Assembly (NCBI GenBank): GCA_031256235.1 | Contig: JAIRQZ010000011.1 | Coordinates: forward strand, 1-41,157 | Length of the DNA stretch: 41,157 nt | Origin: Christensenellaceae bacterium | Lineage (GTDB): Bacteria > Bacillota > Clostridia > Christensenellales > UBA1242 | Reading direction: 5' to 3' | Shown: positions 16,648-34,647 of the stretch, piece by piece | Position numbering within the stretch: position 1 is the stretch's first letter | Layout of the letters: each line of letters opens with the position of its first letter | Program-made: the position numbers and the translations under genes | Notes under the pieces: model-generated | What the model was told of the DNA's origin: nothing | Database searches by the model: none | The model's input: only the letters and a program-made list of their open reading frames with translations

Positions 16648-17805
16648 GTGTATATAAAAACACTTGCCTTGCAAAATTTCCGCAATCACGCGCGTCGTTC
16701 TTTGGAGTTATCCCAAGGTATAAATGTCTTTGTCGGCGATAATGCCCAAGGCAAAACCAATTTATTGGAAGCAATATATGTTACTTGCATAGGCAGAGGC
16801 TTTCGAAGCCCGCGCGACAAAGACGTAATCCGTTTTGGCCAACACTTCGCAAAAGTAAAAACCATCGCAACCAAGAAATTCGGTGACATAAGCATTGAAG
16901 TTATTATAAACAATCCCGAAAACACTTCGCGGACATTGAAGCAAATCAAAGTCAACGAAATCCCCATCTTAAAAATGGGCGAACTTATGGGCAACGTGGC
17001 CTGTGTGTTCTTTAACCCTGACGAATTAAAACTTGTAAAGGAGGCTCCAGCCGACCGCCGTCGTTTTATGGACATCGACATAAGCCAAATGGACAAGACG
17101 TATTTTTACAATCTTTTGCGCTATAACAAGATTTTAAAGCAAAGGAATGCTCTTTTGAAAGGAATTGACACAAAAAACGAAACCGAGATGCGTGGCCTTG
17201 ATATTTGGGACGAGCAACTTGCCACGGCGGGCGAGCAAATAATAAAACGCCGAATTTACTTTTGCGAAGAATTAAATAAATTACTTCCGCCCGTGCATAC
17301 GGCGTTGGCGGTTGACGAAACCGTGACATTGACATATGAGACGAACGGCGGCAACATGCCAGGCGCCTCCAAATGCTCAACTGCTACGCTCTTGTCGCCA
17401 ACGGACCAGGGGGCTCCGCAAGATGAGCACTCGGAGGTGCCTGGCATGCTTGCCGCCGTTCGTTCGGCACGCGCCAACGACTTGCGTTTGCGTACTACTA
17501 CGGTAGGCCCGCACCGCGATGACATACTTTTGCAAATCAACGGCCGCGACGTCCGATTGTTCGCAAGCCAAGGTCAACAACGCACCGTGGCCCTGTCGCT
17601 TAAAATCGCCGAACTTAAAATATTTGAACAGGCACTTGGCGAAAAGCCAATCTTGCTTTTGGACGATGTGTTCAGCGAACTTGACGCAAAAAGACAAGAA
17701 AAGTTATTGAAACTTATCTCGGGCTGGCAAACGGTGATTACAACAACGGAATTTAATCTGCCCTTGCCAAACGCAAAGGTTTTTAAAATCTCCTGTGTTC
17801 ATTGA
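16648..17805 (+). CDS. recF: RecF recombination mediator with in-frame palindromic insertion
   Basis: 385 aa SMC-like ATPase that loads RecA at gaps. Walker A is GDNAQGKTNLLEAI, the signature region reads RLFASQGQQRT, and Walker B is PILLLDDVFSELD. GTG start, placed 5 nt after the -10. After LTYETNGGN about 35 residues (PGASKCSTATLL...) are foreign to the family and come from a 121-bp palindrome; RecF then resumes at LRLRTTTVGPHRDD. The frame is intact and the insertion lies in a variable region before the conserved GPHRDD, so function may survive. Confidence 0.93.
   Translation: MYIKTLALQNFRNHARRSLELSQGINVFVGDNAQGKTNLLEAIYVTCIGRGFRSPRDKDVIRFGQHFAKVKTIATKKFGDISIEVIINNPENTSRTLKQIKVNEIPILKMGELMGNVACVFFNPDELKLVKEAPADRRRFMDIDISQMDKTYFYNLLRYNKILKQRNALLKGIDTKNETEMRGLDIWDEQLATAGEQIIKRRIYFCEELNKLLPPVHTALAVDETVTLTYETNGGNMPGASKCSTATLLSPTDQGAPQDEHSEVPGMLAAVRSARANDLRLRTTTVGPHRDDILLQINGRDVRLFASQGQQRTVALSLKIAELKIFEQALGEKPILLLDDVFSELDAKRQEKLLKLISGWQTVITTTEFNLPLPNAKVFKISCVH
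17342..17462. repeat. 121-bp palindromic element inside recF
   Basis: The left arm (17342-17379) pairs with the right arm (17424-17462) with about 35 of 38 matches and one single-base indel. The arms start CGAACGGCGGCAA and end TTGCCGCCGTTCG. An inner TCTTG/CAAGA pair extends the stem. It is translated in frame. This is the cleanest member of the group. Confidence 0.85.
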
Positions 17806-33783: not shown

Positions 33784-34647
33784 ATGCTTGTCGAGTGCGC
33801 ACCGATTGCAGGTTATACAACATTTGAATTCCGAAAGGTCTTGCGTTCGCTGGGCGCCAAGGTTTTGTGGACGGAGATGGTATCCGCCGCCGCGATATTT
33901 TATAAAAATAAAAAAACTTTGAAGTTATTGGAACACGAAACTGTGGACGGCATAAAAAACGTGGTCCAACTGTTCGGTCACGTCCCCGAACATTTCAAGT
34001 TTGCAATCGAAAGCGGTGTCCTTGACGGCTTTGACGAAATCAATATCAACATGGGTTGCCCCGCAAACAAAATCATAAAAAACAACGAAGGCGTGGCCCT
34101 TATGAACAAACCCGACTTGGCGCGCGAAATTATCGAAACGGCAACGGCCTCCATCTCGTCGCTCAAAAACCGAAATCGGCTGTCGCACGATTCCGCCCCT
34201 GCGGGGGATTTTCGCTTCTCAATGAAACCCGTTACCGTTTCCGTAAAAATGCGCCTCGGTGTAAAAGAACCATTTGACTGCGCAGCCTTCGCCAAAATGT
34301 GCGAAAGCGCAGGGGCGTCACGCTTGATTGTGCACGGGCGCTATGCGGAACAAGGCTACAGTGGCAAGGCCGATTGGAACGCAATTGCGGAAATCGTGCG
34401 CGCCGTAAAAATCCCCGTAATTGCTAATGGTGATATAAAAACACTGGACGACGCAAAAAAGTGCCTTGAAATAACAGGCGCGACGGGTGTAATGGTGGGC
34501 AGGGCTCTTTTGCCGATTTACCGCAAATACTTTCCGACAAATTTGCGAATATTAAGAGGTGAGAAAATTTCTCGTGACGCCGATATTGATATCCGCTCTT
34601 GTGATGTGTGCGGGCTTTTCGCTGGGGGTGCCCCCCAGACCCCATGA
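33784..34647 (+). CDS. dus: tRNA-dihydrouridine synthase
   Basis: 287 aa flavoenzyme that reduces uridines in tRNA D-loops. APIAGYTTFEFRKVLRSLG, INMGCPANKI (catalytic Cys), KMRLG, VHGR and VIANGDI fit the DUS family. After EIIETATASISS about 25 residues (KNRNRLSHDSAPAG...) are an insertion with a GC hairpin. The C-terminal domain is short and the last residues (GGAPQTP) come from another palindrome that also encodes part of VanW. CACAAT lies 5 nt before the ATG. Confidence 0.88.
   Translation: MLVECAPIAGYTTFEFRKVLRSLGAKVLWTEMVSAAAIFYKNKKTLKLLEHETVDGIKNVVQLFGHVPEHFKFAIESGVLDGFDEININMGCPANKIIKNNEGVALMNKPDLAREIIETATASISSLKNRNRLSHDSAPAGDFRFSMKPVTVSVKMRLGVKEPFDCAAFAKMCESAGASRLIVHGRYAEQGYSGKADWNAIAEIVRAVKIPVIANGDIKTLDDAKKCLEITGATGVMVGRALLPIYRKYFPTNLRILRGEKISRDADIDIRSCDVCGLFAGGAPQTP
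34171..34214. repeat. GC-rich palindromic insert in dus
   Basis: CGAAATC and GATTTTCG outer arms with an inner CCGC-CCCT-GCGG hairpin. The core resembles the jag hairpin (both read CC..TGCGGGG..TTTT.GCTT), suggesting a shared element. Confidence 0.4.

Follow-up and report, generated by a model that had tools for sequence, protein, structure and literature searches.

The recF gene in the window, the 41,157-nucleotide stretch of DNA analysed here, contains a near-perfect palindrome that is read in frame. This palindrome is probably one of the copies that a small non-autonomous palindromic repeat has left in spreading through the species, and its outer arms would owe their sequence to inverted copying of host flanks. 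The genome holds at least eight in-frame palindromic insertions in eight unrelated genes, six with a shared core termed type A and two, including the one in recF, with a shared core termed type B.

The palindrome in recF and its protein

The recF open reading frame (16648-17805, forward strand) starts with GTG and encodes 385 amino acids, and its product was identified as RecF by the NCBIfam model TIGR00611 (355 bits, above the cutoff). The palindrome, to which no strand is assigned, was located at 17341-17463 by a repeat search and by folding. The inverted-repeat search showed that its outer left arm (17341-17354, forward strand) is an exact inverted copy of 17450-17463, with 14 of 14 positions paired, and that the inner arms (17355-17382 and 17421-17448) pair at 86%; a single 1-base indel lies between the outer and inner arm segments. 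The 121 nucleotides originally noted fold at -82.7 kcal/mol, compared to -43.2 ± 3.6 kcal/mol for dinucleotide shuffles (z = -11), which bears out the near-perfect palindrome reported in the preliminary description. When folding was slid along 818 kb of the genome, the recF palindrome was one of the two strongest hairpins, and the four strongest hairpins were this palindrome and three others, each within an open reading frame and all among the eight insertions. As a means of finding copies, fold energy was too unspecific above about -60 kcal/mol. An assembly artefact is an unlikely source of the palindrome, since the arms are non-identical, the frame is intact and two cores recur across eight loci.

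To place the inserted segment, the RecF sequence was aligned to an HMM built from 29 RecF proteins of the family, which gave a net insertion of 22 residues at NMPGASKCSTATLLSPTDQGAP, corresponding to 22 codons or 66 nt at about 17353-17418 (forward strand), accurate to a few codons. The outer right arm (17446-17463, forward strand) encodes MLAAVR, the native start of a RecF helix (residues 267-272) by alignment and by the AlphaFold model, and these residues align with LLEAIH, FITALS and FETALI of relatives. Since the outer 18 nt of the right arm are native helix codons, the most natural reading of the matching left arm is that host DNA was copied there in inverted form. The preliminary description had correctly noted that the insert contains no stop codon, and the frame is indeed uninterrupted across the palindrome. 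It had also stated that the 121-bp length keeps the frame, and that the segment is foreign throughout and followed directly by RecF sequence. Both statements need correction: a length of 121 is not divisible by 3, and the frame is preserved by the 66-nt net insertion; the right arm, for its part, already carries the MLAAVR codons.

The AlphaFold model of RecF has a mean pLDDT of 88. Residues 235-263 are predicted to be disordered, with a pLDDT below 50 for the insert, and this loop lies between a strand (226-231) and a confidently predicted helix (267-273). According to this model of RecF, the only host protein examined in this way, the insert is predicted to sit in a tolerated, exposed segment. 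The loop also differs among relatives. The RecF of one genome (G054, L046 / G054:C19:23474-25000) has a roughly 180-residue low-complexity insertion rich in N, E and K in the same loop, and that of another genus (G018, L017 / G018:C67:2176-2237) has an in-frame dispersed palindrome of the form GTAGGGG...CCCCTAC there, which has 31 matches in the G018 genome. Judging from sequence comparison, the variable length and these two insertions indicate a loop that is generally permissive.

The congener comparison consists of one genome, G001, which is 76% complete. Its RecF loop is of similar length and unrelated sequence, from which the exact event in recF is not reconstructable, and it folds with a z of about -0.6; this linker was considered as a decayed copy of the element and was rejected, as it has no folding signal above that of shuffles. 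The RecF scan of the genome-contig collection returned distant relatives only, the best at about 44%, and no closer empty site. The proposed search for an empty site and a target duplication was answered in part: the sites of relatives are empty or shorter, and no direct target-site duplication was evident in the flanks examined.

Two repeated cores in eight genes

When the whole recF palindrome was used as a BLASTN query against its own genome, the genus and 297 family genomes, no second copy was found, and the exact arm sequence was absent from the genome-contig collection. The search for further copies that had been suggested therefore failed at full length, but it succeeded when limited to the core (17369-17436, forward strand), of which a second in-frame copy lies on another contig (C8, L063:3333-3400), in a metallophosphoesterase-like gene. 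The BLASTN identity of this pair is 73% over 49 nt, and its local alignment score is 24; neither 5,000 shuffles nor 6,972 genomic 68-mers gave a score above 14. A covariance model of type B (R2) matched in its own genome the two founding copies alone. With relatives that lack the element and a core copy elsewhere, the palindrome is not a unique, ancestral feature of recF.

A genome-wide survey of inverted repeats revealed three 117-bp palindromes that keep the reading frame of their host genes, which encode an MFS transporter, a YlbJ-like protein and MiaB. These palindromes have a central core in common, and their outer arms, which are unrelated or nearly so between copies, pair perfectly within each copy; in the YlbJ-like and MiaB copies, perfect outer arms enclose a mismatched inner stem. 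The right arm of the YlbJ-like copy encodes EFKPTDTSE, compared to EAKKTDIGE in G001, and both arms of the MiaB copy align weakly to the host protein. Core searches extended type A to mfd and ftsY. The covariance model of type A (R1) added a sixth copy at 34154-34222 (forward strand), in the window itself, with an E value of 6e-4 genome-wide and 3e-5 within the window. It lies in an open reading frame (33784-34647) identified by Pfam and NCBIfam as tRNA-dihydrouridine synthase (Dus). The outer left arm of this copy, GAAACGGCAACGG (34135-34147, forward strand), is an inverted copy (12 of 13 positions) of the outer right arm, CCGTTACCGTTTC (34229-34241, forward strand), which encodes PVTVS and adjoins the KMRLG motif; we take PVTVS to be native Dus sequence. 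No relatedness between the type A and type B cores was detected by local alignment.

All eight copies lie inside open reading frames of proteins identified by family models; some run in the direction of the host gene and others against it, and none of them interrupts the reading frame of the host. The idea of a dispersed, frame-keeping palindromic element tolerated in proteins, put forward in the preliminary description, is thus supported by the type B partner and the six type A copies. The palindromes measure 98-123 bp and, of the seven tested, six fold with z of about -5 to -14; the copies that appear decayed are those in the genes of Mfd (z -1.4) and Dus (34135-34243, z -1.3). Between copies, the core is conserved at the centre and the termini are not. 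The phosphoesterase gene has a net gain of 66 nt compared to most family genomes, measured as gaps between matched stretches, and of 63 nt compared to G001. Relative to G001, miaB gained 72 nt and the YlbJ-like gene only 30 nt. The gains of 66 nt in the phosphoesterase gene and in recF fall well short of the full palindromes, which measure 99 and 123 nt, respectively, whereas the net gain of ftsY compared to most family genomes (99 nt) is about the size of its whole palindrome.

With the type A and type B covariance models, no convincing copy was found outside the species in 297-309 family genomes; the two marginal matches had E values of 0.09 (G012, type A model) and 0.009 (G023, type B model). 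Neither core was found in G001, the viral contigs and plasmids gave no match to the elements, and Rfam gave no family match in the window. G001 has palindromes of its own, 150-198 bp long and apparently intergenic, which have a shared core and unrelated, perfect or near-perfect arms of 23-48 nt (L127:7991-8188, L127:18515-18690, L126:14615-14811, L186:12004-12184, L196:44-239 and L171:591-740). They belong to neither type A nor type B, and they suggest that an anatomy with private arms is not peculiar to coding copies.

Origin of the palindromes

The conserved cores, together with outer arms that are locus-specific, near-perfect and partly host-like, suggest inverted copying of flanks. In the mechanism that we propose, a core hairpin of roughly 60-100 nt would be inserted into a gene and, during or after insertion, DNA synthesis would switch strand at the hairpin and copy one flank in inverted form, giving rise to long, near-perfect, locus-specific outer arms. 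One arm would then stay recognisable as host code, as with MLAAVR in RecF, EFKPTDTSE in the YlbJ-like protein and probably PVTVS in Dus. Template switching has been described as creating or perfecting inverted repeats (PMC8794818, PMC7202029). A native arm with its inverted copy is clear in the RecF and YlbJ-like genes and likely in the Dus and phosphoesterase genes. Since the MiaB copy is ambiguous and strand switching is not needed for the FtsY copy, where the net gain almost matches the palindrome in length, the strand-switch step is one that we infer. Copies would persist in genes by adding whole codons, by being free of stops when read in the frame of the host and by landing in surface loops, and the ribosome would read the insert through as a disordered loop, which would make excision unneeded. 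This best explanation is limited in that type B consists of two copies, and the small gain of the YlbJ-like gene against G001 and the lack of an evident direct target-site duplication also count against it. It is conceivable, though somewhat doubtful, that the central hairpin alone is the mobile unit and that at each new site it provokes inverted copying of the host codons beside it, through which each copy acquires its own perfect, host-derived arms; if this is true, the intergenic palindromes of G001 would be a second, independent case of core-only mobility.

A purely local template switch, in which snap-back synthesis on recF's own sequence made the palindrome with no mobile element, would account for the native helix in the right arm, for the exact outer arms and for the lack of another copy at full length. 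However, the core that recF has in common with the phosphoesterase gene on another contig largely refutes it, and the parallel type A set of six with the same anatomy also stands against it, which makes such an origin very unlikely. The insertion of a whole palindrome as a classical MITE or REP element, mobilised in trans by a transposase or RAYT and with arms that later diverged while staying complementary, fits the 99-nt gain of ftsY, and the GTAGGGG-ended dispersed palindrome behaves in this way in the recF of G018. We regard it as unlikely for types A and B, in which conservation of the centre and not of the termini is the reverse of what a terminal-inverted-repeat element has, and in which recF and the phosphoesterase gene gained less than the length of their palindromes. 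The high stability of the recF hairpin could also point to removal of the segment as an intervening sequence, excised from the mRNA or skipped in translation. Such removal, of which no sign at the RNA level was seen, is extremely improbable given the open frame and whole codons and the lack of an Rfam family match, and the wide variation of the loop in relatives, up to the long insertion of G054, makes removal unnecessary.

Comparison with known palindromes and other repeats

Rickettsia is the genus best known for palindromic elements that code for protein. The Rickettsia palindromic elements (RPEs) are about 100-150 bp long, keep the reading frame of the many unrelated protein genes that carry them, fall into several sequence families per genome and are tolerated as extra protein segments (PMC10969869). 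The elements described here are likewise palindromes of similar size, in frame in eight unrelated genes, with the RecF insert in a predicted exposed loop. In contrast to RPEs, their host belongs to another phylum and, by its RecF relatives, to a reduced-genome Clostridia-like lineage, and they have a conserved core, locus-specific and apparently partly host-derived outer arms, and few copies. By description, they resemble RPEs in a functional sense, and we do not claim membership of that group.

The perfect inverted repeats, the proposed inverse copy of a flank and the better pairing of outer than inner arms are also features of quasipalindrome template-switch mutations, but plain template switching leaves the repeated core unexplained. 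Short, dispersed palindromes are likewise found among the GTAG-tagged REP or MITE-like repeats, one of which is the in-frame copy at the RecF loop of G018; that palindrome has conserved termini (TGTAGGGG...CCCCTACA) and is unrelated in sequence to types A and B, in which neither the conserved termini that define MITEs nor, in the flanks examined, a direct target duplication was found. Long near-perfect inverted repeats are also described in translated mitochondrial genes of Nematomorpha, with arms coding for conserved residues; these differ from the present elements in being mitochondrial, and the abstract mentions no repeated core (PMC6649704).

The presence of two kinds of element in core genes (those of RecF, FtsY, MiaB, Mfd and Dus) of a reduced-genome bacterium from a phylum other than that of Rickettsia demonstrates that short selfish DNA can repeatedly extend proteins with added peptide segments. 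Moreover, the anatomy of a conserved core with private arms offers a route, open to direct testing, by which inserted hairpins may turn adjacent coding DNA into long palindromes.

Two other repeats were observed in the same genome. Near ftsY (L106, about 2600-2670, contig C51) there is a short tandem array of GGCCGAAA units. On contig C17 (L072:1692-1912), a 221-bp inverted repeat has perfect 56-nt arms, which appear to reach the starts of two divergent, similar genes for small membrane proteins.
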